From assembly GCA_903879705.1 (NCBI GenBank), contig CAIRMO010000004.1, forward strand, positions 1 to 58,974: DNA of 58,974 nucleotides, read 5' to 3'. Shown one piece after another: positions 12,742 through 55,782 of the stretch. The translations under genes and the position numbers were made by a program. Numbering within the stretch: the first letter of the stretch is position 1; each line of letters begins with the position of its first letter. The notes beneath the pieces are model-generated. The model had not been told where the DNA came from. It made no database searches and saw only the letters and a list, made by a program, of their open reading frames with translations. Origin of the DNA: an uncultured Candidatus Competibacteraceae bacterium (GTDB lineage Bacteria; Pseudomonadota; Gammaproteobacteria; Competibacterales; Competibacteraceae).

Positions 12742-13275
12742 CTAACCATCACGCCCAACCCGCACCCGCACCACAAAATCCTTCGCCAGCCGCACTTGCC
12801 CGCTCTCCGTCAGCAACAACGGCTGATGCGGTATCAACCGATTTTCATTGACGAAAACACCATTAGTAGAACCCAAATCCTCGATCCATACCCCATCAGC
12901 AGCAGGCCATAATCGGGCATGACGGCGCGACAAATTACCGTACTGCTGTAATTGCATTGCCAACGGTGAACACTCCGGATCGCGCCCGACGATTAACTCC
13001 CGGTCAATCGCTGCCTCACCCCACGGCCACTCCAGAATCAGCCGGGTTTCTATTCCTAACGACTCGCCGCAATACGGACACACCGCACTCTTTTTGGGAA
13101 TTAGGGCCTCACATTTAGCACAAGGAACTGGGATTTTTTCCGTACTCGCTGCCAATACCGACGGAGCGGCTTCGGTCAGTGAAATATGGGCGACCGAGAC
13201 TCCACATTGCGTACATCGAATCACGCTCAACGCATTTTCACCACCACAGGTCGGACAGACTCTCACCCGCGCCAT
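12742..13275 (-). CDS. Zinc-ribbon and FHA-domain protein
   Basis: 177 residues from the ATG at 13275, which overlaps the radical SAM gene by 13 bp. Two CxxC zinc-ribbon units come first: C7/C10 with C21/C24, and C52/C55 with C66/C69. A forkhead-associated domain occupies about residues 78-175, with the diagnostic GRDPECSPL, NLSRRHARL and IEDLGSTNGVFVNENRL motifs. FHA domains bind phosphothreonine peptides, so this is the likely phospho-reader for the WD40 kinase encoded downstream. The BrnT-BrnA-XRE cassette now separates the two genes. Confidence 0.9.
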   Translation of the reverse strand: MARVRVCPTCGGENALSVIRCTQCGVSVAHISLTEAAPSVLAASTEKIPVPCAKCEALIPKKSAVCPYCGESLGIETRLILEWPWGEAAIDRELIVGRDPECSPLAMQLQQYGNLSRRHARLWPAADGVWIEDLGSTNGVFVNENRLIPHQPLLLTESGQVRLAKDFVVRVRVGRDG

Positions 13276-22669: not shown

Positions 22670-25333
22670 ATGGAACTCGAAAAACGTCTTGGGGAAGCTA
22701 CGAAGGCGGATGCCGCTGGCCTGTTGAACAAGGCCGGCTTGGCGCAACGCCAGCAAAAAGGGCTGCATTCGGCCACTACGGGAGAGGATCCATCGCTGCT
22801 GGCGGACGGGGACACTCCTGAATCGGGGTCCGGGGCGCTGGATGCCGGGATGGTGCTTGGGCCTCCCGAGCGGCGGGTCCGACTGTTGCACGATCTCAGC
22901 GGCAAGCAGCGGATCTGGCTGGTCCGGATCGCCTCATCCGGCACCCGGGATGATGACACGGCTGATGATTTCCGGGCGATCAAGATTTTCTTGCCGGTGG
23001 ACCATGTAACACGAGAGGCGGGGCGCGACGAGCGGGCCTTGCGGGCGGATTCGCTCGGTTTGCGCGCTTACCTGACCAAGGCCAGAGCGCGGGTGGCGGT
23101 CGCTACAAAGCTTGAGCATCCGTCCATTGCCCGGGTTTATGGCTGGCGCTATGGCGCTGATGGCTGGCCATTCGCCGAAATGGAGTACATCGACCACCCT
23201 ATGCACAGCCTGGCGCAGTTGCTGCGCCAGCAGCCATCGGGTTTATCCTGGGATACCGTGCTGAAATGGCTGCGGCCGGTTGCCGATGCGCTGGACTATG
23301 CCCGCCTGGAGCAGCGATTGGCGCACCAGCATCTCGACGTCGACACAGTGTTCATTACTGACCAAGGCGCGGTTAAGGTCTTGGGATTTGGCCTGGCCAC
23401 CGAAATCAGGGAGCCGCGCAGCATCCTGTTCAGCGCTAGCGGTTCAGCAGGAGGGACGGTTGCGGAAGGGTCAGGTGAATCCGGCTCCGCTGAAATGGTT
23501 TTTCGCCGCGATGTGTTTGCCTTGGCGCTCCTGATTTATCAGTTGCTGGCTGGGCGTAGCGCGTATGCCGCCCAAGGCCAGACTTTAGGCGCCATACCGC
23601 GTTCACCCGGACTCACCGATGACGCTTGGCGGGTGTTACGGCGCGGACTGGCCTATCCGAGCGAGCTGTGCCCGATCGACGCTGGCCGATTTCTCAATGA
23701 GCTGGAGGCAGCACAGCAACCGTCCCTGGGCGTCCGGCGCAGCCGCCGTTCGCTGCTGGAACGGCACGGGGCGCTGGCGGCGGGATTAAGCCTTGTGGTG
23801 ATGGTGGGTGGTTACTGGCTGGCGACGCGCACCAGCGAGTCGCCAGGGGCGAATCTACCAGCGCTGACTGAGGCGGATGGCACGGCGCAATCCAGCGCGG
23901 GGGAGCGCGATCCAAGGACAGTGGCGAATTCCCTGGCTTTGGCGCAACAGGCCGAGCATGAAGCGGACCTGCGCGCCTTTGAAGCCGCCAAGCGCGTGGA
24001 TGCGGTGGCGGCTTACCGGCTTTATGTGCAGCGCTGTCCGCGTTGCGACCACGGGCAGGAGGCGCACGCCGCGATCCGCCGGCTGGAGAACCAGGAGAAG
24101 GTCAGCTTGCTCCAGGCAGAATTCGCCACCCTGGCCCAGACCGTGGAACGGGAAGGCCGAGAAGATCGGGGCGATGCCGCGCTGGCCCGGCTGAAGGCAT
24201 TGGCGGAATTGACCCCCGACGATCCGTTCATCGCGACGGGTCGGCGGCGGATCGCTTTGGTTTGGGTGGCTCGGGGACAAACCGGCCTGAAACAGCCGAA
24301 CCTGGCGGAAGCCCGGAAGTGGCTGAAGAAGGCCCAGTCCGTGCAAGTCGATCTTCCTGAACTGGCGACTTTGGCCCAGGCGTTGGCCCAAGCCGAGGTC
24401 GCCGAGCGGAACCGGCAGACCGATGCCGATGGGTTCGCGGCCGCCCGGAACGCCAATACCCGCCGGGCCTACTGGGCCTACCTTGACCGGTGCGCGGCGA
24501 GCTGTGGCTACCGCGCCGAGGCGGAGGCTGCCCTGATTCGGTTGGCGCCCACCAATCCGGTTATGCGGGATCGCCTGAACGATAGTTCCCAGGGTCCGGA
24601 AATGGTCGCGATCCCGGCGGGCGCGTTTCTGATGGGGTCGCCGCCCCAGGAGAAAGGCCGCTACGCCGACAATGAATTCCTGCACCCGGTGCAGATCGAT
24701 AAAGCCTTTGCGATCGGCAAGTACGAAGTGATGTTTCATGAATACGACCGGTTTGCCACGGCGACGGGGCGGACCTTGCCCGACGACAAGCGGTGGGGGC
24801 GCAGCCGGTTGCCCGTGATTAATGTGAGCTGGCAGGATGCGATGGCCTATGCCGAATGGCTGTCCCAACAAACCGGTGCCCGCTATCGCCTGCCAACTGA
24901 GGCCGAGTGGGAATATGCGGCCCGGGCCAGAACCACGACCAGCCGCTACTGGGGTGATGATCCTGACCAAGGCTGCGCCTATGCCAACGCTGCCGATCTG
25001 GACGGCAAACAGTTGTTCGTGGGCTGGACGGAAATGAAATGTCATGACGGCCATATCTACACCGCCCCGACGGGCAGTTATCGGAGTAACGACTTCGGTT
25101 TGCATGACATGGCGGGCAACGTGCTGGAGTGGACGTGTTCGCTGTATGACAAGGATTCCCGGGTAGCGCCGGTTCAGAGTTGCGAGGCGATGACCGGGGA
25201 GCGCGAGTTTGTGGTGCGGGGCGGTTCCTGGAACGATGAGCCGCGTAACGTCCGTTCCGCGGATCGGCATCGCAGCCCACCCGATTTCCGCGACTATTAT
25301 CTTGGCTTCCGCCTGGTTCGAGAGCTGCCCTGA
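22670..25333 (+). CDS. Pseudokinase-transmembrane-FGE fusion protein
   Basis: 887 residues. A kinase fold spans about residues 70-370: VAIK-like lysine in RAIKIF (K105), EMEYIDHP hinge near 170. The catalytic HRD is replaced by HQH (219-221), the lysine and asparagine of the catalytic loop are missing, and DFG is GFG (239-241), so it should not phosphorylate. A transmembrane helix (LAAGLSLVVMVGGYWLATR, near 370-390), a helical repeat region with paired cysteines (VQRCPRCDH, LDRCAASCGY) and a C-terminal formylglycine-generating-enzyme-like domain from about 640 follow; the last includes MVAIPAGAFLMGS, RLPTEAEWEYAARA, GNVLEWTCSLYD, VVRGGSWNDEPRNVRSA and LGFRLVRE. The FGE part is probably periplasmic, the pseudokinase cytoplasmic. 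Confidence 0.85.
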   Translation: MELEKRLGEATKADAAGLLNKAGLAQRQQKGLHSATTGEDPSLLADGDTPESGSGALDAGMVLGPPERRVRLLHDLSGKQRIWLVRIASSGTRDDDTADDFRAIKIFLPVDHVTREAGRDERALRADSLGLRAYLTKARARVAVATKLEHPSIARVYGWRYGADGWPFAEMEYIDHPMHSLAQLLRQQPSGLSWDTVLKWLRPVADALDYARLEQRLAHQHLDVDTVFITDQGAVKVLGFGLATEIREPRSILFSASGSAGGTVAEGSGESGSAEMVFRRDVFALALLIYQLLAGRSAYAAQGQTLGAIPRSPGLTDDAWRVLRRGLAYPSELCPIDAGRFLNELEAAQQPSLGVRRSRRSLLERHGALAAGLSLVVMVGGYWLATRTSESPGANLPALTEADGTAQSSAGERDPRTVANSLALAQQAEHEADLRAFEAAKRVDAVAAYRLYVQRCPRCDHGQEAHAAIRRLENQEKVSLLQAEFATLAQTVEREGREDRGDAALARLKALAELTPDDPFIATGRRRIALVWVARGQTGLKQPNLAEARKWLKKAQSVQVDLPELATLAQALAQAEVAERNRQTDADGFAAARNANTRRAYWAYLDRCAASCGYRAEAEAALIRLAPTNPVMRDRLNDSSQGPEMVAIPAGAFLMGSPPQEKGRYADNEFLHPVQIDKAFAIGKYEVMFHEYDRFATATGRTLPDDKRWGRSRLPVINVSWQDAMAYAEWLSQQTGARYRLPTEAEWEYAARARTTTSRYWGDDPDQGCAYANAADLDGKQLFVGWTEMKCHDGHIYTAPTGSYRSNDFGLHDMAGNVLEWTCSLYDKDSRVAPVQSCEAMTGEREFVVRGGSWNDEPRNVRSADRHRSPPDFRDYYLGFRLVRELP

Positions 25334-25616
25334 ACCCACCAATCCAATGAAAGCAATCCAGTGGGCGGGGGTACCTACAGGCTCGAACCATCGCCCGGCA
25401 TACTGGCCAACGCCATCAGGCGCAACGCTACGACCAGGCGATCGAGCGTCTGGAGCGCGAATCCGGGGTGCGTTTTCCGCAAGGACAGGTAAAATCAGTC
25501 GAACAAGATAACCGCGCTGAATGAAGCACCGCTTTACTGAATTTCGCACTTGCGGAACCTGCGCCGCCCTGCCGGATGAATCCTGACGGCGCCCGCCGAT
25601 GCCACAATAGGATGCC

Positions 25617-27758
25617 ATGATCAAGAAAACCAACACACTGCCCGTCGGTTATCGCCTCCACCAGTACCGGATTGAATCGGTGCTGGGCGCAGGCGGCTTC
25701 GGGATTACCTACAAGGCAGTTCACGAGGCGTTGCAAACCCGGGCGGCCGTCAAGGAATACTTCCCGGTCGAATGGTCCTATCGGGATCGCGACGATGTGA
25801 ACGTGCTGGCCAACACCCAGGGGGGGTCGCCCACCTCCGAGGCCGGCGAGGACGCCTGTTACTCGTGGGGACTGGAGCGCTTTCTCAATGAAGCCCAGAT
25901 CCTGGGTAAAATCGATCATCCTGGCGTGGTGCGGGTGCGGGATTTTTTCGAAGCCAATGGCACCGCCTATATCGTGATGGACTATGTGGAGGGCGAGTCG
26001 CTCGGCCAGATGTTGCAGCGCGAGCGGAGCCTGTCAGAGGAACAGGTTCGCCGCCTGGTCGAGGACGTGTTGCCGGCGCTGGAGGCGGTTCATGCCCAAG
26101 GCTATCTGCATCGCGATCTGAAGCCGGCCAACCTTTACCGCCGTTCGGACGGACGGACCATCCTGATCGATTTCGGCGCGGCCCGCCAAGCGTTGGGCAA
26201 GCGCAGTAAGAGCGTCACCAGTGTGTTCTCGCCCGGCTACTCGCCTATCGAGCAATACCTGGTGGACGGCAAGGGTTATGGCCCGTGGACCGACATCTAT
26301 GCCTTGGGCGCGGTGCTGTATCACTGCGTCACCGGCGTGGCCCCGGTCGAGGCCCCGGCGCGGGTGCTGGATGATCCACTGCGGCCCGCCGAAGAGGCCG
26401 CATTTGGCCGTTACAGTCCAGCCATTCTGAGGTTAGTGGATCGATCCATGTCGGTCCGTCCCGGAAACCGGTTCCAGACCATTGCCCAGATGCGGGCGGC
26501 GCTTGAGGTTCAGCCGGAGCCGGCTCGCCCGGAACATGATGAAGACCGCACCATCAAGCTCGAATTGCCAATGCGTCCGGATTTGCACCGCAGTGGCGAG
26601 AAACCGCGTCCGGCGATCATTGCGCCGGCGTGCGAATCACCAGAACGTCCCCTCCTTCCGGCGAAGCCGAAACCTCGGTGGCGCGACTGGCGCTGGGGGG
26701 TGAGTGCGATGGCGGTGGTAGCGATGCTGGTCGGCGGGAGTACGTTTTTGATCATGAGAGCGCCAACGCCGCCAACGGTTACGCCCGCTCAGCCGGTTAT
26801 TCCATCTCAGCCGATCACGCCCGCTGAGCCGGTCACGCCCGCTGAGCCGGTTATTCCACATCAGCCGGTCATTCCACCTCCGCCGGTTACGCCCGCTCAG
26901 CCCGTCATTCCATCTCAGCCGGTCACGCCCGCTCAGCCCGTCATTCCACCTCAGCCACCGGTCGCCAGCGGACCACCGGCCAATCCCCGGCCCGGCCAGA
27001 TTTATACCGATCCCACTACAGACATGGCGCTGGTCTGGATTCCGCCCGGCTGTTTCACCATGGGCAGTCTGGAAACCGAGAAAGACCGCAGTGCTAACGA
27101 AGCTCCTCATCAGGTGTGTCCAAAGGGTTTCTGGCTGGGCAAAACTGAAGTGACCAATGCTCAGTACCGGCAATTCGAACCCGACCATGATAGCGGCAGT
27201 TATGAATCCCTAACTCTGAACGCCCCCGACCAGCCCGTGGTTCGAGTCAAATGGCAAGAAGCGGTAGCTTATGCCGACTGGCTGTCAAGCAAGACGGGCC
27301 TGCAGTTTCGGCTGCCAACCGAGGCGGAATGGGAATACGCCGCCCGCGCCGGACGAACCGATTCCCGGACGTGGGGCGATAACCCGAACCAGGCCTGTCG
27401 GCACGCCAATATCTATGACGAGACCGCCCGCAAGGTCAAACCCTTTAACTGGGCCAACTACCCCTGTCAGGATGGTTATGTCGTCGCCGCCCCGGTTGGC
27501 AAGTACGCCGCTAACGCCTTCGGTTTGCACGATATGCTGGGCAACGTCGGTGAATGGACCTGTTCCGAATACGACAGCACCTATGCCGGCGGTGAAACCC
27601 GCTGCGCTCCCCGGAATGCGGCGGCTGGCGGTCGGCGGGTGTTGCGCGGCGGTTCCTGGTCCGATTATCCGGGGCTGGTGCGCTTCGCTTACCGGTTTCC
27701 AACCGTACCCGACAACAAAAAATTCGATTACGGATTCCGTTTGGTGCTGGAGCCATGA
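25617..27758 (+). CDS. Ser/Thr protein kinase-transmembrane-FGE fusion protein
   Basis: 713 residues. The intact Hanks kinase has glycine loop GAGGFG (24-29), lysine K46 in AVKEYFP, HRDLKPAN (165-172), IDFGAAR (184-190) and a GYSPIEQY activation/P+1 region near 205. A transmembrane helix (SAMAVVAMLVGGSTFLIM, near 362) is followed by a Pro-rich linker of VTPAQPVIP-type repeats and a C-terminal FGE-sulfatase domain with MALVWIPPGCFTMGS, FRLPTEAEWEYAARAGRTD, GNVGEWTCSEYD, VLRGGSWSDYPGLVRFA and YGFRLVLE. The kinase would act in the cytoplasm and the FGE domain outside. FGE-like domains of this type often bind or modify peptides without proven oxidase activity. It follows the pseudokinase gene and probably pairs with it and with the PP2C. 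Confidence 0.9.
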   Translation: MIKKTNTLPVGYRLHQYRIESVLGAGGFGITYKAVHEALQTRAAVKEYFPVEWSYRDRDDVNVLANTQGGSPTSEAGEDACYSWGLERFLNEAQILGKIDHPGVVRVRDFFEANGTAYIVMDYVEGESLGQMLQRERSLSEEQVRRLVEDVLPALEAVHAQGYLHRDLKPANLYRRSDGRTILIDFGAARQALGKRSKSVTSVFSPGYSPIEQYLVDGKGYGPWTDIYALGAVLYHCVTGVAPVEAPARVLDDPLRPAEEAAFGRYSPAILRLVDRSMSVRPGNRFQTIAQMRAALEVQPEPARPEHDEDRTIKLELPMRPDLHRSGEKPRPAIIAPACESPERPLLPAKPKPRWRDWRWGVSAMAVVAMLVGGSTFLIMRAPTPPTVTPAQPVIPSQPITPAEPVTPAEPVIPHQPVIPPPPVTPAQPVIPSQPVTPAQPVIPPQPPVASGPPANPRPGQIYTDPTTDMALVWIPPGCFTMGSLETEKDRSANEAPHQVCPKGFWLGKTEVTNAQYRQFEPDHDSGSYESLTLNAPDQPVVRVKWQEAVAYADWLSSKTGLQFRLPTEAEWEYAARAGRTDSRTWGDNPNQACRHANIYDETARKVKPFNWANYPCQDGYVVAAPVGKYAANAFGLHDMLGNVGEWTCSEYDSTYAGGETRCAPRNAAAGGRRVLRGGSWSDYPGLVRFAYRFPTVPDNKKFDYGFRLVLEP
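26764..26960 (+). repeat. Degenerate tandem repeat encoding the Pro-rich linker
   Basis: Repeats of CCGGTTATTCC[AT]-type and ACGCCCGCTCAGCC-type segments encode roughly a dozen copies of V[TI]P[AS][QE]P. It is a low-complexity, length-variable extracellular spacer between the membrane helix and the FGE domain of the kinase. Confidence 0.85.
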
Positions 27759-34876: not shown

Positions 34877-34929
34877 GTAGTACGGGCATCCTGCCCGTGT
34901 TTAGCCCACGGGCAGGATGCCCGTGCTAC
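34877..34929 (+). repeat. Large palindromic repeat (hairpin)
   Basis: CGGGCATCCTGCCCGTG and its perfect 17-bp inverse are separated by TTTAGCC, with outer GTAG/CTAC arms (one mismatch). It forms a hairpin of about 22 bp in the 190-bp gap (34831-35020) in front of the island operon. It has no T-run, so it is a dispersed-repeat type element rather than a classic terminator. Confidence 0.9.
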
Positions 34930-34960
34930 GATAAATTCCACCACTTGAATCGGATTCCTA

Positions 34961-35020: not shown

Positions 35021-36850
35021 ATGTCTCATTTAAGTAAACAGTGTTCGCTTGTGGGGGGGGGTAATATATTTTTTGAGGCATTAGTTTTATTTTTGCTTCT
35101 GTTTACCCTCTTCACGCCATACGCCTACGCAACACCATCGAATTTCGCAACCCCCGCTTGGACTCAGGCGCTGCAAAACCAAGGATGGGATGAAACCACG
35201 GCAACGGAAGTCGTCAATCTGAACCAGGATTGGTTCACCAGCCTCGCTGAAAACTACCCGAAGGAACTGGACACGCAACTGACGCGACTGGGCCGCCTCG
35301 GTAAATACCCGCAATTCGCCTTCCTGCTGCAAAATCACCCTGAATTGGCCGGTCTGCTAGCCGGTTCCGAAGACCCGCGCCTGCTCGCTAAGACGCTGTC
35401 CAACGAGGACTGCTATCCCTATCTCACTCAGCAGTATTCCCTGCAAGCTGCGCCGGATGATGCGCTGGCTTTAGCCAAGGCACTGGAACGGCACGGTCAG
35501 ATGATTTGCGCTTTGGCAAAACGGGGGATTCCCGGCGCGTCAGCATTGTTTGTATTTCCGCATGAAACCACCGCTGGCCGCGAATATGCCCGCTGGCTGG
35601 ATGAAGTGGTGCGGAATGCATCAAGCCAGTCCGATGATCAATTAGCCGAACTGATTGGTTTTATTGCTACTGAGGGCGGGGATATTCGGCGACGCATGGA
35701 GCGCGATGCGACGTTCCGTGATCAATTTCGCCCGACCTTATGGCCGCGTTTGGTTCGGACGGTTCAGAATGAAAAATTCTCGGTAGCTGTGGCAGAACCG
35801 CTCATTTGGGATTTGCTGGCGTTACCACAGGGAGAAAATTTGCTCAAAGATTGGGGGCCAGAAGTTCCAGCCAATTTGCTGTTTGGCAATGCTGCTTACC
35901 CTAAAGAATTGCACGAAACCGTTATCGATCTAATGCGTAACAGCGACCAAGAAACCATGACGGTGTTAATGCGCTTTGCTGGGGAACCCGTGTTGAATAC
36001 CTTTTTACAGCGCCAAGATTTGGATTGGGAAATCAAAGCAACGGTACTCAAAAAGCGCTATGAGTCATGCCCAAAGGATTTTGATCAACCCTGCCCTACT
36101 TTCGTGGAAAAGGTAAAGCATGATAACCAGATGAGTGCATCTACTTTAGCGGAAGACTTAAAGCCAGAACCCAGCGGACCAAAAATGTGGATTCCTTTAA
36201 TATCTTCATACTACACCGCTAAAAAAATGGCGCAAGGGCGAGAAACCAGCACCTTCGACTTGTTTCTTCTTGGTATTGATATTGTAACCGTTGCGATGCC
36301 CGTTGGTAAGATCGCCGGAAATTTAATCAAGGGAACAGCAAAAACAGTTGTCAAGGGAACTACCAAAGAAATTGGCGAGAATATGGTCAATCAGCAACTC
36401 AAAGACTATAGCCGTGACGCACTTGCAAAAAAGATCAACACCCAAATGGTGAAAAATTTGACCGAAAAACAACTGATACCGCAAGCTATGAAAGAAGTCC
36501 TGAAAAAATATATGCCGGTTATTTCTAAAGCGCGGGCAATAACCACCGGCAATACGGCCTTTGAAGCCACCAAGCCGTTACAATTTCTGTTTGAAAAAAC
36601 AGGCGTTGGTCGAACCACGTTCAAGAAATGGACGGGGCTGGAAGCACGGATTTTTATGCGAAATGACGCCAAGGTTGTCATTTATCCAACCCAAGGTATT
36701 AGTGGAGCCTTGCTGCGTGAAACTGCGGAGAATGCCGTTGCAGAAGCAGTCGGTGAAGTTGCCAAAGTCGCACAAAGAGCATGGCAACAAAACGCATCTG
36801 GTTGGTGGCTGATGAATGCTACCAACATGGATGCAGCCATCGCTCGATAA
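35021..36850 (+). CDS. Exported or membrane-anchored protein with a G9 tract near its start
   Basis: 609 residues, no family recognised. A hydrophobic segment (FFEALVLFLLLFTLFTPYAY, residues 17-36) acts as signal peptide or anchor. The body is helical: WTQALQNQGWDETTATEVVN, then repeated short helices around 60-340, and a hydrophobic patch VTVAMPVGKIAGNLIKGTAKTV near 425. The C-terminus (VGRTTFKKWTGLEARIF, GGWWL-like end) shows no enzyme motif. It is the first gene of an AT-rich operon leading to a GTPase. The run of nine G at 35053-35061 lies at codons 11-14, inside the leader, so a slipped G would frameshift the protein before the signal sequence. Confidence 0.7.
   Translation: MSHLSKQCSLVGGGNIFFEALVLFLLLFTLFTPYAYATPSNFATPAWTQALQNQGWDETTATEVVNLNQDWFTSLAENYPKELDTQLTRLGRLGKYPQFAFLLQNHPELAGLLAGSEDPRLLAKTLSNEDCYPYLTQQYSLQAAPDDALALAKALERHGQMICALAKRGIPGASALFVFPHETTAGREYARWLDEVVRNASSQSDDQLAELIGFIATEGGDIRRRMERDATFRDQFRPTLWPRLVRTVQNEKFSVAVAEPLIWDLLALPQGENLLKDWGPEVPANLLFGNAAYPKELHETVIDLMRNSDQETMTVLMRFAGEPVLNTFLQRQDLDWEIKATVLKKRYESCPKDFDQPCPTFVEKVKHDNQMSASTLAEDLKPEPSGPKMWIPLISSYYTAKKMAQGRETSTFDLFLLGIDIVTVAMPVGKIAGNLIKGTAKTVVKGTTKEIGENMVNQQLKDYSRDALAKKINTQMVKNLTEKQLIPQAMKEVLKKYMPVISKARAITTGNTAFEATKPLQFLFEKTGVGRTTFKKWTGLEARIFMRNDAKVVIYPTQGISGALLRETAENAVAEAVGEVAKVAQRAWQQNASGWWLMNATNMDAAIAR
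35053..35061 (+). repeat. Nine-G homopolymer inside the coding leader
   Basis: Nine consecutive G begin 32 bp after the start ATG. Homopolymer G tracts of this length early in surface-protein genes are the classic substrate for slipped-strand phase variation in Neisseria and Campylobacter. The current length keeps the frame open. Confidence 0.85.
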
Positions 36851-36871
36851 CTTGACCAAGGATCACCCATC

Positions 36872-36958
36872 ATGGCGCAAAAAATCAAGCCTATTTTCCA
36901 AAAAATTACCGCGTTTTTGACGGTGATTTTATTACTAACTTTACTATTACTGGCGTAG
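36872..36958 (+). CDS. Short ORF with a membrane helix; probably the frameshifted 5' end of the next gene
   Basis: 28 codons from the ATG at 36872: MAQKIKPIFQKITAFLTVIL, then LLTLLLLA and TAG. The start follows GACCAAGGATCACCC with a fair Shine-Dalgarno (AAGGA). One base before the TAG, the +1-shifted frame reads VAASFSWKTFIQGTAKVADD and continues without a break into the 37015 ORF. A one-base indel at about 36955 therefore probably split one gene into this piece and the next, unless it is a true short membrane peptide. Confidence 0.5.
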   Translation: MAQKIKPIFQKITAFLTVILLLTLLLLA

Positions 36959-37014
36959 CTGCTTCATTTTCTTGGAAGACTTTCATTCAAGGAACGGCTA
37001 AAGTTGCTGACGAT

Positions 37015-37869
37015 GTGCCAGTGAATAAAGCGGATGATATTGCTGAAAGTTTGGCTCGATCCAAAAGCGTAACGCGCAAGCTGGATGCTGATTTATTGCA
37101 AGCCGGGAAATTAACCGACAAGATGGATGACGCAGCCCGCGCAACGGTTCGCAACGCGGCAATGCTCAAGGCGCTGGAAAAAGCGATTCCTGATAATCCG
37201 GCACTGCTCAGAGAAATCAAGGCGCTGGACAGCGCTTCACAGGAAGCGGCGGTGGTACTCGCCAAAGGTGGACAGAGCATGGCCCGCGCCATGCCCGATA
37301 TTACCGGACGGGGGCAGCTTTTAAAGCGGGGCGGAGCGGATGTGGTGGCGGCGGTAGGTTTACATGGCGATGATGCCGCCCGTGCCGCTATGCGCCTCGA
37401 TACCGCTATTCAGGGTGGCAGTTTGATCATTCCTGCCGGAAAACGGGCGGTCACTCTGGAAGATTTTGGGCGGGTAATGACTGAAACCGGCGAGTCTGGT
37501 TGGCAATTCTGGCAAAAATCGGTGCAACCCCATTGGAAATTGTGGCTGGGCAGTGGGGCGTTAGCGGTTTATCTTATCAATCCTGAACAATTTCAGGATA
37601 CCGCCGGTAATCTCAGCGAGGCTGGTTTTCGCCATTTGGGTTTGTTAATGGGAGAAGTTTCGGCGGGAGCCATTCGCGGCATTAGCCAAGGAACCGCTGA
37701 GGTAGTTGAGAAGGTCGTAGTCGAAACAACAACCGGCTTTTTCCAAAGTTGGCAAAGCTTTGTTTCCGGCCTGCTGATTTTGTTTGGAATCTCGCTGCTG
37801 TTCCGACGGGTGCGTTATTACGTCCTATGGCCGTTGCGCTGGCTGAATAAGACACCGGGCCAGACCTGA
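37015..37869 (+). CDS. Membrane protein of the island operon (5' part likely in another frame)
   Basis: 284 residues from a GTG at 37015; coding-like sequence continues in frame upstream of it to about 36955. The protein is Ala/Asp-rich and helical (ARSKSVTRKLDADLLQAG, LKALEKAIPDNPALLREIK). It has a possible helix near 180-200 (SGALAVYLINPEQF) and a clear C-terminal transmembrane segment (FVSGLLILFGISLLFRRV, near 244). If joined to the 36872 piece it would have an N-terminal membrane helix too. No family was recognised. It sits between the exported-protein gene and the GTPase gene, which begins 70 bp later. Confidence 0.6.
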   Translation: MPVNKADDIAESLARSKSVTRKLDADLLQAGKLTDKMDDAARATVRNAAMLKALEKAIPDNPALLREIKALDSASQEAAVVLAKGGQSMARAMPDITGRGQLLKRGGADVVAAVGLHGDDAARAAMRLDTAIQGGSLIIPAGKRAVTLEDFGRVMTETGESGWQFWQKSVQPHWKLWLGSGALAVYLINPEQFQDTAGNLSEAGFRHLGLLMGEVSAGAIRGISQGTAEVVEKVVVETTTGFFQSWQSFVSGLLILFGISLLFRRVRYYVLWPLRWLNKTPGQT

Positions 37870-37938
37870 ATCATTCATCATTAACAACCATTCCCCATCG
37901 TTCTCAAACGTGAGTAATCACACTGGAAAGGGTAATCC

Positions 37939-40332
37939 ATGAAACCGCAAATCAGAAAAAACAAGAAAGTTTATCGAATCGCTCTATATGGCGCCAGCGG
38001 ATCGGGTAAAACCTGCATTTTGGCGGCGCTGGCGATAGATCGTTTGCCACACCCGGAGGGTTTAAGTTGTACTTGGCTGCCTTCTGGTCAAGAAGCGGGA
38101 CGGAAATGGCTGAAAGAGGCGGTCAGCTCCTTTGAAGAAAACCGCTTGCCTAAACCGAGTGAGGTCACTACTCAACCTCCCACTTTTGATTTTAATTTTT
38201 CCGCTGATGGACGCACTTATGCAGTAGAAATGATTGACTATGCTGGTGAGTTAGTTAATCCCGTCTTGAGTGATAATGAAAACGCTAAGCTGTTATTTAA
38301 TCACTTAAAAAATATGGATGCCTTGTTGGTTTTGGCCCCAGTTCCAAAAACCGATGGTCATCATTCCATACTTTCCAGGGAATTATTAGCGGTTCGTCGC
38401 ACCTTTGAAAAATTGCGCGAGCAAATGAGTGAAAAAAAGGCACACTTGGATACCCCAGTGGCGCTAATCGTGAATGCATGGGATCGAGTGATGGATCACA
38501 GTCTGGCCGTCAGCGAAAACCAGACGTATGTGAGCGAACAACAAAAGCTGAATGAATTGCTGTTTAAATCCAATACGTTATTGCCACATCGTGGACTTTA
38601 CGATGCGCTTAAAAATAGTGTGCCGGAAAACGATTTTACAGTTTTCCCGGTGAGCGCCATTGGTTTATGCGAAAAAGTGCTGGTCGATGGGCATGAATTT
38701 GAGCGTCCGAAAAATATTAGTCCGCTGCATTCTTTTGGTCTGGAAAATCCGTTTGTTTGGGCGCTGCGACGGCGGGATGAAATTGATGTCGTCAACCTTG
38801 AACAGGCAGTAAGTCAATTGACTGTTGGCAAAGGAACCCGTTTTATTCCGTGGCCGCCACTGGAACTATTGCGTCAAGGCAAGGCAATTCTCAAGCGGTT
38901 TCCACGCGGTAGCGATCTTCAAAAGAAAACGCACGTTGTCGTTCATCAACTGCGCGAGGTGTTCTGGTCACGAGCCGGTATGACGGCGGTTTATTTCTTG
39001 TCTGCGGTGCTGATTACCGAAGCGACTATAGACGGAATGCGTTATCGTTCAGTCAATGCGGTTTTGCATGATCCAAAAGCCAGTGTGGAGCAATTGCAAA
39101 AAGCCGAAGATTGGCTGGATCAATATCAAAGTTCTTCTTTTGGACGTCATCTACTCTACACGCTCAGTGCTAAAACGGCGGGCATTGAACTTGAAAAATT
39201 CCGCTCCGGGCGGGAAGATCTGTTCGCTGAACCATTGAAATCAGGTACTTCTTCGGAGCAGAAAGCTAAAGCAGCTGAGGATTATTTGAAAGCGTTTCCA
39301 AATGGCAAGTATCGTGCTGAAGCAGTAAAAGCCATCCAAGGCTTTGAAACATTGCAATCAGAAATTACTTGGCGGGAAGTTCAATCGTCCAGCTCACTTG
39401 CCGATAAAGCTAAACGTGCTAATGATTACCTGAAAAAATTCCCGTATAGCGATCATGCGGCTGACGCCCGGCAAATACTTTCCGAGGCGGCTAATGCCAA
39501 GAGTTGGGATGACTTTGTAAAGCAGTACAACGGTATGATAAGCGATGGTCGATTGAGCGATGCTGCTGAATTACTGGTCGGACGTAGACCGGAAACGCCA
39601 GACTTAAAAGCCCTCAAGGCGGGTTTTCCATCACAAGCTCTGGAAAAACTGTCGAGACGGATTCAAGAAACAATTACAAACTCACAATGGGAACAAGGCA
39701 TTGAAGAACTGGACAATGCTAGTCGTTGGTCGCCTGATGTGGTCAATGATCAGGTTCAGTCCAAGATTAGGGAATTGCGGGAGCAACTTGACAAGACTTG
39801 GGATCTCAGTCTTTATCAAACGGTGTTGAGCAGCAGAACCACTGATAATCTGCAAACTTACCTTGCTCAAGCGCCGATCAAGTCCATGAAAACTCCAGTT
39901 CAGGATTATCTGGACTATTTAGCGAAGCAACAAGGACAGCTTGATTTAAAACTGACCTTAGTTAAAGTGCGATGGAATCCTGATATTACCGCAAAATCCG
40001 AGGTTAGGTATGAGGTTGCCATTAACGGTAATAACATCATTTATGCTACTGGTCAGGAAGGAACACGGGGGCATTCTGGTGATTTTGTTTCTGTTAATCA
40101 GATTGGCTCTTTTAAAGGTCGCCTTAGTGAAGAAGTGACATTGAATTTTGCAGCAGTAGGTGATGGAATGTTCGGCAAGGCTGATTTAGGCAGAGGCAAT
40201 AGAAAGTTGGCAGTCAGTTCCTTGAATGGTTATTCGCTCGATATACGCGATGATGATGGTAATGTAAGTACGGTTCAATTCTCTTTACAGGGTATGCCCA
40301 AAGCTCCCGAAATGCCGGCTTGGAGGAAATAA
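37939..40332 (+). CDS. Membrane-anchored P-loop GTPase with repeat and C-terminal beta domains
   Basis: 797 residues. The GTPase domain covers about residues 10-270: Walker A GASGSGKT (18-25), switch/DxxG-type MIDYAGELV near 97 and a divergent NKxD as LIVNAWDRV near 177. That combination fits the variant GTPases of bacterial signalling/conflict systems. A transmembrane segment (AGMTAVYFLSAVLITEATI) follows near 345. Two or three helical-hairpin repeats (AEDYLKAFPNGKYRAEAVKA, ANDYLKKFPYSDHAADARQ) lie near 445-520. The C-terminal 130 residues are a beta-rich domain (LTLVKVRWNPD, VNQIGSFKGRLSEEVTLNF, YSLDIRDDDGN). It probably couples nucleotide state to a membrane process. Neighbouring membrane proteins are its likely partners. 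Confidence 0.75.
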   Translation: MKPQIRKNKKVYRIALYGASGSGKTCILAALAIDRLPHPEGLSCTWLPSGQEAGRKWLKEAVSSFEENRLPKPSEVTTQPPTFDFNFSADGRTYAVEMIDYAGELVNPVLSDNENAKLLFNHLKNMDALLVLAPVPKTDGHHSILSRELLAVRRTFEKLREQMSEKKAHLDTPVALIVNAWDRVMDHSLAVSENQTYVSEQQKLNELLFKSNTLLPHRGLYDALKNSVPENDFTVFPVSAIGLCEKVLVDGHEFERPKNISPLHSFGLENPFVWALRRRDEIDVVNLEQAVSQLTVGKGTRFIPWPPLELLRQGKAILKRFPRGSDLQKKTHVVVHQLREVFWSRAGMTAVYFLSAVLITEATIDGMRYRSVNAVLHDPKASVEQLQKAEDWLDQYQSSSFGRHLLYTLSAKTAGIELEKFRSGREDLFAEPLKSGTSSEQKAKAAEDYLKAFPNGKYRAEAVKAIQGFETLQSEITWREVQSSSSLADKAKRANDYLKKFPYSDHAADARQILSEAANAKSWDDFVKQYNGMISDGRLSDAAELLVGRRPETPDLKALKAGFPSQALEKLSRRIQETITNSQWEQGIEELDNASRWSPDVVNDQVQSKIRELREQLDKTWDLSLYQTVLSSRTTDNLQTYLAQAPIKSMKTPVQDYLDYLAKQQGQLDLKLTLVKVRWNPDITAKSEVRYEVAINGNNIIYATGQEGTRGHSGDFVSVNQIGSFKGRLSEEVTLNFAAVGDGMFGKADLGRGNRKLAVSSLNGYSLDIRDDDGNVSTVQFSLQGMPKAPEMPAWRK

Positions 40333-40334
40333 TC

Positions 40335-41480
40335 ATGACTACGAATCACAACACGCCTTTTCTGTTGATCCAAACCCCACGCGCTGGCAAGTGGAATTAT
40401 CGGCATATTACTCCGCCCAATCTTTGGATCAATCAGCAGCAGGTGCTTGCTATCATAGAGGCTGCGCGGAAGAAAAAGGAGGGTAAAAACTTTCTTGCGG
40501 TTGGACATGATAACGTGGTCAAACAGCTTGATGGCAACCGTTCGGCACCAGAATTGTTGATTCTGGCCGGAATAAATACTAAGAGTTTGAGCGGCGAAGA
40601 AAAACAGGTATTACGGGATTCTTTGCAATCCTTATTGGGTCAAGTTGATAAGCTTGTTACGCAAGAAGTTGATTGGAATACGGAAGGAGAAAATGATCCG
40701 GTGGCAAAAAAAGAATTAGCAAACTGGTTTGATGATCATGAGTGTTTCGAGAGAACACAGCATTTGGTATGGAAGCCAAAACCAAAGTGGCTATTTCCGG
40801 TGGTGGTTGCTGTAATAGTTTCAATTACGCTTATTTTTACTGATGTATTGAATAAAGAAAAAGAACAAAAAGAAAAAGAAAAACAAGAAGCAACAGATAA
40901 GGTTAATAAAGAGAAACACAAGTTAGAAATTTTAACATCAATTTGTGGATCAATGAATAATGACCAAGAAAAAACAGCAAGCGAAGAACTAAAAAATGAA
41001 AAATTTTCCAAGTTATTCGAGAATCCTCAATCTGATATTAGCGTTAGTGAGGTATTCACCATGAAGGAAAAGCCAAAAGGATTATTTCCTGCTTTATTTA
41101 GTGAGAATCCAAATAAAGAGAATCTAAATAAAGACGAATTAAAAACCTTGATTGCTTGTAAGAGAACAATCAACACATTTACAGATAAAAATCAGTTTAC
41201 CTGTAACCCTTTAATAGGGGATACTGAAATTGATACACTGGAACAAAAAATTAAGACGTATCAAGATAAAAACAAGGACTTCTATGAAGGAGTAATCGAG
41301 GAAAATTCGAAAGCTAAATATTGTGGTGAAAAGATTAATAAAATCGAATTTTTAACTAAATGTTATGATTCTTGGGCTGAAAAAAAATTAAAGCTACCTA
41401 AAAAATCCGAAAATGAGCGGTTTGAATTCTGGAAAAAAGCAGGTCATTTGTTAGAAAGTTGCCGTAAAGTTGGATCATAA
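40335..41480 (+). CDS. Lys/Glu-rich one-pass membrane protein, last gene of the island operon
   Basis: 381 residues from the ATG at 40335, two bp after the GTPase stop and 7 bp after a GGAGG site inside the GTPase 3' end; an in-frame ATG at 40320 is less likely. A cytoplasmic N-terminal domain (LLIQTPRAGKWNYRHITPPN, ILAGINTKSLSGEEK) precedes one transmembrane helix (WLFPVVVAVIVSITLIF, near 152) and a Lys/Glu coiled coil (EKEQKEKEKQEATDKVNKEK). Its tail contains several Cys (LTSICGSMN, LIACKRT, FTCNPL, KYCGEKI, SCRKVGS). It is AT-rich and not recognised. The coupling suggests it works with the GTPase. Confidence 0.65.
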   Translation: MTTNHNTPFLLIQTPRAGKWNYRHITPPNLWINQQQVLAIIEAARKKKEGKNFLAVGHDNVVKQLDGNRSAPELLILAGINTKSLSGEEKQVLRDSLQSLLGQVDKLVTQEVDWNTEGENDPVAKKELANWFDDHECFERTQHLVWKPKPKWLFPVVVAVIVSITLIFTDVLNKEKEQKEKEKQEATDKVNKEKHKLEILTSICGSMNNDQEKTASEELKNEKFSKLFENPQSDISVSEVFTMKEKPKGLFPALFSENPNKENLNKDELKTLIACKRTINTFTDKNQFTCNPLIGDTEIDTLEQKIKTYQDKNKDFYEGVIEENSKAKYCGEKINKIEFLTKCYDSWAEKKLKLPKKSENERFEFWKKAGHLLESCRKVGS

Positions 41481-41613: not shown

Positions 41614-41688
41614 TTCGTCATACCCGCGAAGGCGGGTATCCAGTTGTTCAGCGGCTGCCAGGATTCCCGCCTTCGCGGGTATGACGAA
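41614..41688 (+). repeat. Dispersed inverted repeat TTCGTCATACCCGCG, intact copy
   Basis: The 23-bp perfect arms TTCGTCATACCCGCGAAGGC... and ...GCGGGTATGACGAA enclose a 29-bp centre. A diverged copy is at 27804-27880. Repeats of this kind are widespread in bacterial intergenic DNA; nothing else was seen in the 255-bp gap 41481-41735. Confidence 0.9.
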
Positions 41689-41735: not shown

Positions 41736-42926
41736 ATGCACATTGAAGCAATTCGTCTAAAAAACCTCAAGGTATTCCGGGATGTGTCTATCCGAGAAAT
41801 CCCGAAACTCTCAGTGATGGTTGGTGCAAACGGTAGCGGAAAAACCACTTTTTTTGAAGTTTTCGGATTTTTACGGGATTGTCTATCGGGTAACGTCCGG
41901 CAAGCCTTGGATGGACGGGGACGCTTCCGGGAAGTGATCAGCCGGGGTTGTGAAACCGAAAATATCCTCATTGAAATTCAATACCGGATGCCGATTGCCA
42001 AAGCCAGTCGGCTGGTGACTTACTCCCTGGAAATTGGCCAGGAACAGGGACGACCCATCGTGCGGCGTGAACGACTCCGCTATAAAAGAAGCGCCTACGG
42101 AGCGCCCTTTCATTTTCTCGATTTCCAGAATGGCAGCGGCTACGCCATTACCAATGAGGAAGATTTTAATAAACCGGATGAAGAACTGCATCGGGAATCT
42201 CAGACTCTTGATTCCCCCGATATTCTCGCAATCAAGGGACTCGGCCAGTTTCAACGCTTCAAGGCTGCCAACGCCTTTCGGCAACTGATTGAGTCCTGGC
42301 ATGTATCCGATTTTCATATCGATGCCGCACGGGGTCGCAAGGAGGTGACGGGGTACGTTGAACATCTCTCCGTATCGGGCGATAACCTGCCCCGCGTTGC
42401 CCAATACCTGTACGAAAACCACCCGGACGCCTTTCAGCAGATTCTGGCGCGAATGCGCGAGCGAGTCCCCGGTATCAGTGAAGTCCTGCCGGAACTCACC
42501 CCCGACGGTTATTTGCTGCTGCGTTTTCAAGACGGATCCTTCAAAACCCCGTTTCTTGATCGCTATGTCTCCGATGGCACGATTAAAATGTTCGCCTATC
42601 TCGTGCTGCTCCATGACCCAAACCCCCATCCTCTGTTGTGTATCGAGGAACCGGAAAACCAACTCTATCCGCAATTGATGGCTGAACTGGCCGAGGAATT
42701 TCGTCTATACGCCCGGCGCGGCGGACAGGTGATGATCTCGACGCATTCGCCTGATTTTCTTAATGCGATAGAACTGGATGAAGTGTTCTGGCTGGTCAAA
42801 CGGAATGGCTATACCCAAGTGTGTCGTGCCAAGGATGATCCGCAGATCACTGCCTATATGGCTGATGGCGATAAAATGGGTTATCTGTGGAAACAAGGTT
42901 TTTTTGGAGGCGCTGATCCGCAATGA
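41736..42926 (+). CDS. AAA/ABC-type ATPase of an OLD/PARIS-like ATPase-TOPRIM pair
   Basis: 396 residues. SMC/RecF-like P-loop protein with Walker A GANGSGKTTFFEVFGFL (30-37 core), an insert helical region, Walker B LLCIEEPENQLYP near 300 and H-loop QVMISTHSPDFL near 330. That combination is the AAA_15/AAA_21 family. It overlaps the DUF4276 gene by 4 bp (ATGA). In OLD, PARIS and related defence systems such an ATPase senses phage products and its TOPRIM partner cuts nucleic acid. Whether this pair is one of the named systems cannot be settled here. The base composition is closer to the host than to the island before it. Confidence 0.85.
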   Translation: MHIEAIRLKNLKVFRDVSIREIPKLSVMVGANGSGKTTFFEVFGFLRDCLSGNVRQALDGRGRFREVISRGCETENILIEIQYRMPIAKASRLVTYSLEIGQEQGRPIVRRERLRYKRSAYGAPFHFLDFQNGSGYAITNEEDFNKPDEELHRESQTLDSPDILAIKGLGQFQRFKAANAFRQLIESWHVSDFHIDAARGRKEVTGYVEHLSVSGDNLPRVAQYLYENHPDAFQQILARMRERVPGISEVLPELTPDGYLLLRFQDGSFKTPFLDRYVSDGTIKMFAYLVLLHDPNPHPLLCIEEPENQLYPQLMAELAEEFRLYARRGGQVMISTHSPDFLNAIELDEVFWLVKRNGYTQVCRAKDDPQITAYMADGDKMGYLWKQGFFGGADPQ

Positions 42927-43417
42927 AAGAGTGGGTCTTTTTTCTGGAGGAACTTTCAGCGCGAGCCATGCTGGAAGGGTTGCTGCCCCGAATAGCGCCT
43001 CAATCGGCTGATGATATTCGCTATATCGTCTTTGAAGGGAAACAGGACATGGAGAAGCAGTTGGTGAGACGGATGCGAGGTTACCGGAATGCCGATGCCC
43101 ATTTTATCGTGATCCGGGATCAGGATTCCGGCGATTGCCAAGTGATCAAGGCGCGGCTCCAACAATTCTGCCTCGTTGCCGGTCGCCCCAATGCCGTCAT
43201 TCGCATCGCCTGTCGTGAACTGGAAAGTTTCTATCTGGCTGATCTGATAGCCGTCGAACAAGGGCTTGGCATCACCGGAATCGCAAAGCGCCAAATCCAC
43301 CATAAATTTCGGACGCCAGACCAACTGGGTTCACCGTCACAGGAATTGCAGAAATTGACCAGCGGGCGTTATCAGGCTTTTCCGCGAAACCCCGGCATTC
43401 ATGCCGGGGAGGGATAG
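42923..43417 (+). CDS. DUF4276 (TOPRIM-like) protein, 3' end replaced
   Basis: 164 residues. The family start is MKEWVFFLEELSARAMLEGL with the TOPRIM-like Glu (LEELSA); the acidic motif HFIVIRDQDSGDCQVIK near residue 62 and the Arg/Glu region IRIACRELESFYLADL near 93 follow. DUF4276 members are normally about 200-230 residues. Here the match stops near KLTSGRYQAF and the last residues (RNPGIHAGEG) come from the end of an IS200/IS605-like element whose hairpin starts at 43390. Loss of the C-terminal part may have inactivated the effector. It is translationally coupled to the ATPase. Confidence 0.78.
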   Translation: MKEWVFFLEELSARAMLEGLLPRIAPQSADDIRYIVFEGKQDMEKQLVRRMRGYRNADAHFIVIRDQDSGDCQVIKARLQQFCLVAGRPNAVIRIACRELESFYLADLIAVEQGLGITGIAKRQIHHKFRTPDQLGSPSQELQKLTSGRYQAFPRNPGIHAGEG

Positions 43418-53605: not shown

Positions 53606-55651
53606 TTATTCGCTCAGAGCTTTGAGCAGCGCGTCTTTGGCATCCGCGTAATACACGACGGTGATTTTAGTCGCCAAGTCATCGGGTAGATCAAACAATT
53701 GCTTGCGGGCCGAGACCGGGATGAGGATTTTCCGCGCCCCTTTATCGGCGGCCAGTTCAATGATGCTGACCGCGTTGTACAGCGGTTCGATGGAACCGCC
53801 GAGATTCAGTCCGCCGACGACCACCAGCCCGCCTTCCAGACTGCGCTCGACCAGCGCCGAACTCAGCGCCAGCAGAATGGGGATTCCGGTCGCTGCCGCA
53901 CTTTTGCAGGCATCAAAGGCGCGGAATTGCAGGGTGAACTCATGAGAACGCGGGTCACGATCCCCGACCAGTTCCCTGGCCCGGGCGTAAAGATTCTGTT
54001 CGGCACAACGCACACTTTCCTTGAGCGGTCCCGGTGGAGTTTGATTGAGAATCCGCAAACCACTGCCGGAGCCTTCGGTGACTTCAATGCGAAACAGGCC
54101 GGGATTTTCATCGGTGTCGCCGGGTGACAAGGCCCACACCTGACCGGCCGGGAGCGGATCGCTGCCGATACTGTTTTCGTGACGCAGTTCGGGAGTGGAA
54201 ACAAACTGTTCGATGCCATCCGGCAGCAGGGTAAAGCTGAAATGGGTGTTGCGAAACTCAGCCGCGCCGATGCGCTTTTGTTGTTCCTTCACCCGGCGGC
54301 GACATTCCAGCGCCAGCCTGGCGGCCCACTCCAGCGCGTCGTCAGGGACGAGCGTTTCGGGATCGGGGAACATCAGTTTGAGCAATCCGCTCATGGTTTT
54401 TTGGGTGGCGGTGGTGTCGCGGCCACTCAACGCACCGCCAAAATAGAGGCGACCCTGGAAGTGGTTAACCCGGCTTTGCGCCCGCAGGTGATTCCAGCAG
54501 GAGGAGAGGAAATCGCTGACCAGGCCAAAATGATCAGTCAACTGCTCGCGGTTGACTTTCGGCACATCCCAGCCGGGAAAGTAGGCATGGAGACGATCCA
54601 TAAAAGCGGTGTCATCGCGCATTTCCGGCGGGAGCGGGCCAAGCAGGTGGCCCATCCGCTGCTGGTGTTCGATATCGACTTCAAAGTTGCCGACCATGAC
54701 CAGGCCACCGAAACCGCGAATACTCTCCTTGCCCCGGCTGAATTCGCCGGACTCCATGTAGCCTTTCATAATATTCACGCCGTCTTTCTGATCAAAGGCG
54801 ATGCCAGCGACTTCATCGAAGCAAACCACGTCGTATTGGCAGACCAGGCCGCGTTGACCGTTCTGGTTGTTGACGAACATCTTGGCCACGGTGGCCTTGC
54901 CGCCCGAAACCAGATGCGCGTAAGGCGAAACCTGTTGGTAAAGGTGGCTTTTGCCGGTGCCGCGTGGCCCCAGTTCGACCGCGTTGTAGTTGTTTTCCAC
55001 GAACGGAATCATCCGCAGCAGCATGACATCGCATGTGCGCTCGCCGAGAACCGCCGGTTCCAGCCCGATGCTTCGCAGGAGTAAATCCCGCCATTCCTGG
55101 AAGGTGAACCGGCTGCGTCCCGCGCACAGGGTTTCCAGCACATTGCGTTTGGAAAGCTGGATTTCGCGCAGCGACTCGACGCCGAACGGCCGCCCGTTTT
55201 TTTCCTCGGCGATGTACGGATCGTAGGTTAGATCGACTTCCGCGTAAAAGCCGCCGGTGAGCATCCGGTCGTGGGTGTTCACCAGTTCGTCGGTGATGCG
55301 GACATCGTTGAGCCGCAAGCTGGGCAGTTCGGCCAGAAAGCAATTGTTTTTGGCATCCAGCCGGGCCTTGATCAGATCGATGATCTTGACCCGACCCTGT
55401 TCTTTGGCGCGGGCCTTGAACAGTTCTTCCTCGCCGGCCCGGACGGTTCGGCTGGATAATTGCCGTTGCACGATAGCCAATCCTTCCTGGATTTCGGTTT
55501 CGTCCACGCTGGCGCAGTAGCGTCCCAGCAGAAACTCCGCCACATAAGTGGGTACCGGGTATTGACCTTTGAATTGGCGCACCAGGTCTTTGCGAACCAG
55601 ATAGCCCTCAAAGGCTTGGGCGGCGATGTGGTCCAGGGCGTCGAGTTGCAT
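53606..55651 (-). CDS. brxL: BREX system Lon protease-like protein BrxL
   Basis: 681 residues. Acts in BREX phage defence as a DNA-binding AAA+ protein. Central ATPase with Walker A GPRGTGKSHLYQQ near residue 229 and a Walker-B-like VVCFDEVAGIAFDQKDG near 275; C-terminal Lon-like region with KSAAATGIPILLALSSALVE near 585 and VVVGGLNLGGSIEPLYNAVS near 610. The Lys of the Lon Ser-Lys dyad is not obvious (Asn-Ala where Lon has Glu-Lys), so protease activity is uncertain. The start is set by MQLDALDHIAAQAFEGYLVR. It follows pglZ on the same strand after a 131-bp gap filled by a large palindromic repeat. Confidence 0.93.
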   Translation of the reverse strand: MQLDALDHIAAQAFEGYLVRKDLVRQFKGQYPVPTYVAEFLLGRYCASVDETEIQEGLAIVQRQLSSRTVRAGEEELFKARAKEQGRVKIIDLIKARLDAKNNCFLAELPSLRLNDVRITDELVNTHDRMLTGGFYAEVDLTYDPYIAEEKNGRPFGVESLREIQLSKRNVLETLCAGRSRFTFQEWRDLLLRSIGLEPAVLGERTCDVMLLRMIPFVENNYNAVELGPRGTGKSHLYQQVSPYAHLVSGGKATVAKMFVNNQNGQRGLVCQYDVVCFDEVAGIAFDQKDGVNIMKGYMESGEFSRGKESIRGFGGLVMVGNFEVDIEHQQRMGHLLGPLPPEMRDDTAFMDRLHAYFPGWDVPKVNREQLTDHFGLVSDFLSSCWNHLRAQSRVNHFQGRLYFGGALSGRDTTATQKTMSGLLKLMFPDPETLVPDDALEWAARLALECRRRVKEQQKRIGAAEFRNTHFSFTLLPDGIEQFVSTPELRHENSIGSDPLPAGQVWALSPGDTDENPGLFRIEVTEGSGSGLRILNQTPPGPLKESVRCAEQNLYARARELVGDRDPRSHEFTLQFRAFDACKSAAATGIPILLALSSALVERSLEGGLVVVGGLNLGGSIEPLYNAVSIIELAADKGARKILIPVSARKQLFDLPDDLATKITVVYYADAKDALLKALSE

Positions 55652-55680
55652 GTTATTGAAATCCTGATTTATTGAGTAAG

Positions 55681-55782
55681 GGTAGGGCGGGTTAGCGTAG
55701 CGTAACCCGCCACTACTGCGACGCCACTACTGCGACTCCACCCACTGGCGGGTTACGGCTAACGCCTAACCCGCCCTACGCT
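55681..55782 (+). repeat. Large inverted repeat between pglZ and brxL
   Basis: GTAGGGCGGGTTAGCGTAGC...AACCCGCC is mirrored by GGCGGGTTACGGCTAACGCC...CCGCCCTAC. The arms are about 30 bp with a few mismatches around a centre carrying two copies of CCACTACTGCGAC. It fills almost the whole 131-bp gap and could stabilise or separate the two messages. Confidence 0.88.

Follow-up and report, generated by a model that had tools for sequence, protein, structure and literature searches.

A 58,974-nucleotide contig from an uncultured Candidatus Competibacteraceae bacterium (GenBank CAIRMO010000004.1, positions 1 to 58,974; the window), part of a 3.6 Mb draft genome (G000), carries a block of four plus-strand genes in the order A-B-C-D (35021-41480), a conserved operon whose third gene encodes a putative membrane-anchored GTPase of the double-GTPase (DO-GTPase) family. 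In our estimate there is an even chance that the four products constitute one trans-envelope complex driven or gated by GTP, its purpose perhaps being defence. Operon, GTPase family and motifs were computed and the membrane topology was predicted; we infer that the products form a complex and in which direction it signals, and defence as its purpose, with A as the effector, is our guess. If the proposal is correct, the set would encode an inner-membrane-spanning device driven by GTP, which the intact four-gene sets make directly testable. The literature searched revealed no DO-GTPase whose chain extends into a periplasmic half or whose gene is accompanied by genes for exported partners. The features of the block are as follows.

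Gene A, 35021-36850, plus strand: predicted exported, all-helical protein of 609 residues, with a hydrophobic stretch near 411-432 and the conserved C-terminal motif GL.AR.FMR.D
Gene B, about 36872-37869, plus strand: predicted exported protein with a C-terminal membrane anchor and a basic cytosolic tail; N-terminus and body in different frames
Gene C, 37939-40332, plus strand: 797 residues; DO-GTPase2 domain at about 10-285, predicted membrane helix at about 346-364, helical repeats, and a beta-rich C-terminal domain at about 671-784
Gene D, 40335-41480, plus strand: 381 residues; small N-terminal domain with a TPR.G motif, one predicted membrane segment (153-171), and a Lys/Glu-rich C-terminal part
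Repetitive extragenic palindromic (REP)-like palindrome, 34877-34930, no strand given: directly upstream of A, left edge of the block
Second palindromic element, 41616-41686, no strand given: between D and the next gene, right edge of the block

Conservation and distribution of the four-gene set

Models of the four proteins were run on 27 sources, the window and 26 further loci (17 loci in another round), with a strong match defined as E < 1e-14 for B and E < 1e-30 for A. Strong B matches were obtained in 14 of them (the window, L007, L019, L059, L060, L061, L062, L063, L064, L065, L066, L072, L098 and L099), of which L072 lies on the same contig as L020, and L098 and L099 were found after the models had been built and were not used for them. 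Gene order is A-B-C in 11 of these 14 loci and B-C in 12. L065 has B-C with no detectable A, and in L061 and L066 all that is left is an interrupted or truncated B with no partner genes. D follows C in six of the seven loci that extend past C (the window, L007, L062, L064, L072 and L098); in the seventh, L065, the gene after C has no detectable similarity to D, its layout being similar by eye. A-B-C-D is a conserved operon. An earlier, sequence-only reading of this DNA had proposed a possible new system here, and this stands: the gene set is conserved, and no description of it was found in the open-licence literature searched. The same reading had allowed that the GTPase might prove to be a standard translation or motility enzyme with unrelated neighbours; no such GTPase was recognised, and the same neighbours recur elsewhere.

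The set is rare; its carriers belong to the Pseudomonadota or are related to a Planctomycetaceae genome. Within the planctomycete family, 101 genomes yielded B in nine and strong A in seven: six with both, one with A only, three with B only and 91 with neither (Fisher p 4.5e-7, a count that takes two draws of 101 as the same genomes and leaves out five weaker A matches). At the level of the planctomycete order, a B match was obtained in 16 of 396 genomes, weak matches included. A occurs in one of 369 genomes of the window's class, namely the window's own, and B truly in one among 398 genomes of the phylum; the B matches in L022 and L023 were rejected as oxidoreductase and pyrH/frr genes (by eye), and no C relative was found in those two genomes. 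Full-length C was detected in its own genome and in G020 among 40 genomes of the order, with short repeat matches in two more, while among 392 genomes of the phylum to which G784 belongs 12 gave a match, only that of G784 being full-length, with at most two candidates scored per genome. A scan of genome contigs confirmed three loci among 89 candidate stretches.

The genes are separated by 21 (A-B), 69 (B-C) and 2 (C-D) bases. Their G+C content is 48.8% in A, 53.7% in B, 45.5% in C and 35.7% in D, and that of the whole block is 45.7%, versus 61.2% in the left flank and 61.4% in the right. The AT-rich row of closely spaced genes described in the sequence-only reading was thus correctly placed, and comprises four genes. 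The set was AT-rich relative to its flanks in all four loci compared, with values of 44.0 versus 59.7% in G020, 44.7 versus 59-61% on contig C97 and 42.1 versus 52-53% in L064. A tree of C groups its four Pseudomonadota rows (support 95/97) on long branches. The base composition suggests foreign or conflict-type DNA, but the tree dates no transfer. The 21-base half-site of the REP-like palindrome has 45 matches genome-wide with at most one mismatch, versus none for the reversed pattern. Promoter and terminator scans performed no better than on shuffled sequences, and the window contains neither Rfam matches nor tRNA genes.

A second, related set is present in the same genome on contig C97 (L008, 7411-14440). 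It is AT-rich and intact, and consists of a TerF-like vWA protein followed by A, C and D, with no B.

The GTPase and its predicted envelope partners

C matches the Pfam family DO-GTPase2 (PF19993) with E 1e-6 and 29.1 bits, above the cut-off of 27. Its relatives score 30.6 (L064), 19.1 (G020) and 16.8 bits (L020), and the paralogue on C97 matches DO-GTPase1 only, at 16.6 bits. The P-loop, D-Y-x-G-E, W-D and P-x-S motifs are kept in ten aligned rows, and D100, Y101, G103 and the Walker B glutamate, E104, are invariant in the 10-row alignment A11. An AlphaFold model (pLDDT 68.7; four sequences per job) consists of a Ras-like domain and a long helix (326-376) holding the membrane segment, followed by helices up to residue 663 and then strands up to 784, with low confidence in the last part. 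In VIA-align the N-terminal part aligned with small GTPases (Z up to 9.8), and the 50 rows listed are small GTPases that cover C residues up to 290. The best Foldseek rows were mostly guanylate-binding proteins with TM-scores of only 0.13-0.23, and for the fold of C we therefore claim the GTPase domain only. PDB sequence searches with alignments A6, A4 and A7 returned nothing convincing (best E 0.0035), and a match of C to the PADLOC model of AbiLi (E 9.4e-4) was judged to be chance. The membrane segment is weakly hydrophobic in the window (1.52, against a threshold of 1.6) and scores 1.67-2.64 in relatives. Net charge is higher before than after it in 11 of 11 rows, and C is predicted to have a cytosolic N-terminus and a periplasmic C-terminal part.

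B of the window has its ATG at 36872 and its signal sequence in one frame and its body, from about 36952, in another. This frame change means that the window copy is broken, either by mutation (a frameshift) or by assembly error. The G020 relative, a single frame of 332 residues, is 80% identical to it over 325 columns, and B is likewise in one frame in L007, L019, L020 and L064. The start of B appears signal-like by eye, and near its C-terminal end a membrane segment is followed by three to six Lys/Arg, with no Asp/Glu, in all ten rows; the protein is predicted to be exported, with a helical domain outside, a C-terminal anchor and the C-terminus inside (10 of 10 rows). Relatives of the planctomycete (L100-L105) also have exported, membrane-anchored proteins with distant similarity to B (19.8-38.3 bits, versus at most 2.8 for reversed copies).

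The N-terminus of A is hydrophobic in the window, C97 and nER1 copies; L060 and L062 have lipobox-like ends by eye, and part of a signal-like stretch in L020 is in a different frame. A is predicted to be exported and, in some members, lipoprotein-like. Its structure model is all-helical at low confidence (pLDDT 48.8), with no Foldseek match below E 0.001. D starts 2 bases past the C stop codon, and its charges fit an N-terminus inside in five of six rows, the sixth being a tie; its N-terminus is predicted to be cytosolic and its C-terminal part periplasmic. The D profile did not match the D-like proteins of L065, L067 and L068. Searches of Pfam, NCBIfam, PADLOC and PHROGs assigned A, B and D to no family beyond matches judged to be chance, among them L064 A as a radical-SAM protein (NCBIfam E 1.3e-6, 27.7 bits, cut-off 400) and L064 B as RexA (PADLOC model, E 0.0029).

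Most of what the sequence-only reading had said of these proteins held. Its exported helical protein is A, its membrane-anchored GTPase with a beta-rich C-terminus is C, its Lys/Glu membrane protein is D, and, as it had noted, no known transport or secretion family is recognised in the set. The membrane protein in its list would be B, which has a C-terminal membrane segment; the break in the reading frame had not been noticed.

Five weak A matches include four further loci in which a diverged A-like gene adjoins a GTPase. In L124 and L126 it directly precedes a GTPase matching C (E 1.7e-27 and 1.2e-29). The order is reversed in the other two: a protein of about 1,710 residues carrying a DO-GTPase2 domain (E 3e-7) precedes the A-like gene in L127/L131, and in L130 one of about 1,736 residues does so, which has a P-loop and a similar layout and was not matched by the C model. 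The stretch of L125 ends too early to show the neighbour. The two giant proteins (L131, L130) comprise a signal-like start, an exported region, a membrane segment, the P-loop/GTPase, a second membrane segment, helices and a beta domain, the last two read by eye. This layout is the topology predicted for B plus C, in a single chain. Homology of the one-chain N-terminus to B is weakly supported, in one of the two proteins and by some models only. An A-B fusion seen by eye in L124-L126 was rejected as unsupported, a reversed control scoring higher. An Hsp70-like gene (L127, 4010-6118, E 2.7e-10) lies convergent to the A-like gene beside the giant GTPase; Hsp70 is named for some GTPase-centric systems in the excerpts consulted of PMC7159879.

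A plasmid search with C returned only Haliovirga abyssi (Fusobacteriota), at 24% over residues 14-281. The gene behind this C relative encodes an N-domain, a membrane segment and a beta domain, the last homologous to that of the GTPase itself (score 102 versus 43 +/- 7.5, 0 of 1000 shuffles). Diverged DO-GTPases also occur in L067 (149-8245) and L068 (3143-12988, two copies), beside a fused ABC-ATPase/MlaE-type permease, identified in L068 by a scanned match (E 1.3e-14) and in L067 as a similar gene by eye only. Both loci also carry proteins with a D-like layout, and they possibly represent a GTPase-linked lipid transporter.

Several other genes of the window are noted here. A HEC-01 candidate defence pair (41736-43417) starts 255 bases behind D; its AAA_21 ATPase matches with E 9.3e-219, and its DUF4276-type partner matches only positions 1-152 of the 190 in the profile. 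PglZ and BrxL genes of a BREX-like system lie on the minus strand 12 kb from the block (53612-58092). Two further stretches, 22670-27755 and 8842-11841, encode Ser/Thr kinases with fused FGE-sulfatase domains (two in tandem) and a WD40-repeat kinase, and 12745-13311 encodes an FHA zinc-ribbon protein. No secretion genes were recognised nearby (L064 by eye; nine scanned window proteins) except a sub-cut-off YscD-type match within an FHA protein.

Function of the set

In the mechanism we propose, C would be the switch, with a DO-GTPase domain in the cytosol and, on the other side of its membrane helix, a solenoid and beta domain in the periplasm. D, whose gene usually comes directly after that of C, would probably pair with it, and A and B would complete the periplasmic part. 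An intruder, or damage to the envelope, would most likely be sensed or contacted by the periplasmic parts; C would then change its GTP state, and the complex would act on the envelope by containment or self-limiting damage, perhaps through the hydrophobic stretch of A. Defence is suggested by the GTPase family, the patchiness and AT-richness of the set, and its neighbours HEC-01 and PglZ/BrxL, and the excerpts consulted of PMC7159879 predict that DO-GTPases operate membrane-proximal conflict systems of bacteria. It appears to us a likelier purpose than transport or envelope upkeep. No PADLOC anti-phage model fits A, B or D, the C match being the chance one noted above. This, together with the flanks of L062 and L064, defence-free by eye, and the ABC-MlaE fusion beside the L068 C relatives, leads us to commit to a trans-envelope GTPase complex and to treat defence as its likelier, though hypothetical, purpose.

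A number of results weigh against this proposal. The reading frame of B is interrupted in the window. B is matched weakly (E 4e-5 to 6e-11) in six loci (L100-L105) whose fetched stretches contain none of A, C and D; in L100 and L102 the B-like gene begins at the contig end, so that these stretches do not cover its upstream side. Neither A nor B was detected beside the C relatives of L067 and L068 or, among its two genes only, in Haliovirga; the D-like gene of Haliovirga is not recognised by the D model, and the beta domains of window C and Haliovirga C do not match, 554 of 1000 shuffles being as good. Against B, the giant N-terminus of L131 scored 15.6 bits (shuffles up to 4.0) and that of L130 2.0 (reversed 6.3), and another model scored both at 2.6, below shuffles. 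Inspection by eye showed no evident defence genes in the flanks of L062 and L064, and GAP1-M was found in none of the three genomes G000 (the window's own), G020 and G783. No relatives of A, B or C were found in viral contigs, of C in phages, or of A or B in plasmids, and nothing in the tree of C points to recent exchange across phyla.

More tentatively, and at clearly less than an even chance, the set may represent a new class of immune or conflict machine spanning the envelope: a cytosolic GTPase would be wired by its own membrane helix to exported helical proteins, and recognition or attack would take place on the periplasmic side. Its old core would be the A-C pair, seen also in the diverged loci, two of them one-chain, and GTPase plus D-like gene an even wider pair reaching Fusobacteriota, where the gene is D-like by layout, not by sequence.

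The strongest competing explanation, which we nevertheless consider unlikely, is a transport or envelope-maintenance machine in which the GTPase powers the transfer of a lipid, polysaccharide or protein cargo, with A, B and the outer parts of C and D forming a bridge in the periplasm. Periplasmic helical and beta domains would suit such a bridge, the fused ABC-ATPase/MlaE permease beside the L068 C relatives, with its similar gene in L067 by eye, speaks for lipid or envelope work, and the beta end of one L068 relative is weakly like C2 (E 0.0015, 19.2 bits, cut-off 22). However, no permease, channel or outer-membrane barrel was recognised in the ABCD set, which is AT-rich in all four loci compared and, unlike upkeep genes, rare and patchy (A in 1 of 369 class genomes, B in 9 of 101 of the planctomycete family).

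Distinctly less probable is a diverged GAP1-type DO-GTPase conflict system in which D would be a GAP1 homologue anchored in the membrane. D lies behind C, as the rule given for GAP1 in the excerpts consulted of PMC7159879 has it, and a GR motif is visible by eye in the D-like N-domains of Haliovirga, L067 and L068, as in the GAP1-N proteins of L073-L078. Against this, Pfam finds no GAP1 domain in D or in the D-like proteins scanned, and a profile comparison of the D N-domain with GAP1-N (hhalign) was not significant, reversed controls scoring as high; a positive control between two GAP1-N types failed as well, so that this comparison lacks power.

That the block is decaying foreign DNA, functionless in this strain, is very improbable. 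It is suggested by the break in window B and the B remnants of L061 and L066, but A, C and D are intact and long, the second set of vWA-A-C-D in the same genome is intact, and a draft assembly can hold a false frameshift. An IcmF/TssM-like secretion core, with its GTPase-type domain, membrane helix and periplasmic helical and beta parts, is hardly credible: the layout is similar, yet Pfam scans found no IcmF, TssL or TssJ family and no secretion genes were recognised beside the set, by eye in L064 and among nine scanned window proteins, the sub-cut-off YscD-type match apart.

Relation to known systems

IcmF/TssM of type VI secretion combines a cytosolic GTPase-like domain, a membrane anchor, and periplasmic helical and beta parts. 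C is like it in layout, but the Pfam families of IcmF, TssL and TssJ gave no match in the cassette proteins at E up to 1 and no partner genes were recognised in the set. TssM is not among the Foldseek or VIA-align rows listed for C, in which only the GTPase domain was effectively compared, and its absence there does not argue against a TssM-like fold. A DO-GTPase linked to psp operons, with a predicted role in membrane stress, is described in the excerpts consulted of PMC11237479; it belongs to the same family, but its neighbours differ, no Psp genes being recognised in our set. The TerF-like vWA protein (PF10138) that precedes the second A-C-D set of the same genome was not noticed, by eye, in ABCD sets.

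The closest comparison is with the GAP1-type systems. In the excerpts consulted of Kaur et al. (2020; PMC7159879), the DO-GTPase family is defined together with partner GAP1 and GASH or FNIII proteins, conflict systems are predicted, and a GAP1 gene directly behind the GTPase is given as a rule. The four-gene set differs from the systems described there in having no recognised GAP1, GASH or FNIII protein, a single GTPase with membrane helix, helical repeats and beta domain, and the exported partners A and B. Pfam detects no GAP1 domain in A, B or D, and no GASH or FNIII name occurs among the Pfam matches of the cassette proteins, the presence of a GASH model in Pfam being unchecked; GAP1-M occurs in three of five planctomycete genomes, on contigs other than that of the set. 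The sequence-only reading had placed the GTPase among those of conflict islands. Its family bears this out, while a conflict role does not follow, GAP1-M, the hallmark partner, being absent from the window's genome and A, B and D having no PADLOC model. With DO-GTPase2 present and no GAP1 recognised, the set shares the switch of these systems without their recognised partner. What it has in common with those in the excerpts of PMC7159879 is the DO-GTPase2 domain, the Walker B glutamate, a foreign-looking operon, a partner gene directly downstream and a membrane link; we make no claim of membership, and on these sequence features the set appears related to GAP1-type DO-GTPase conflict systems by its GTPase family.

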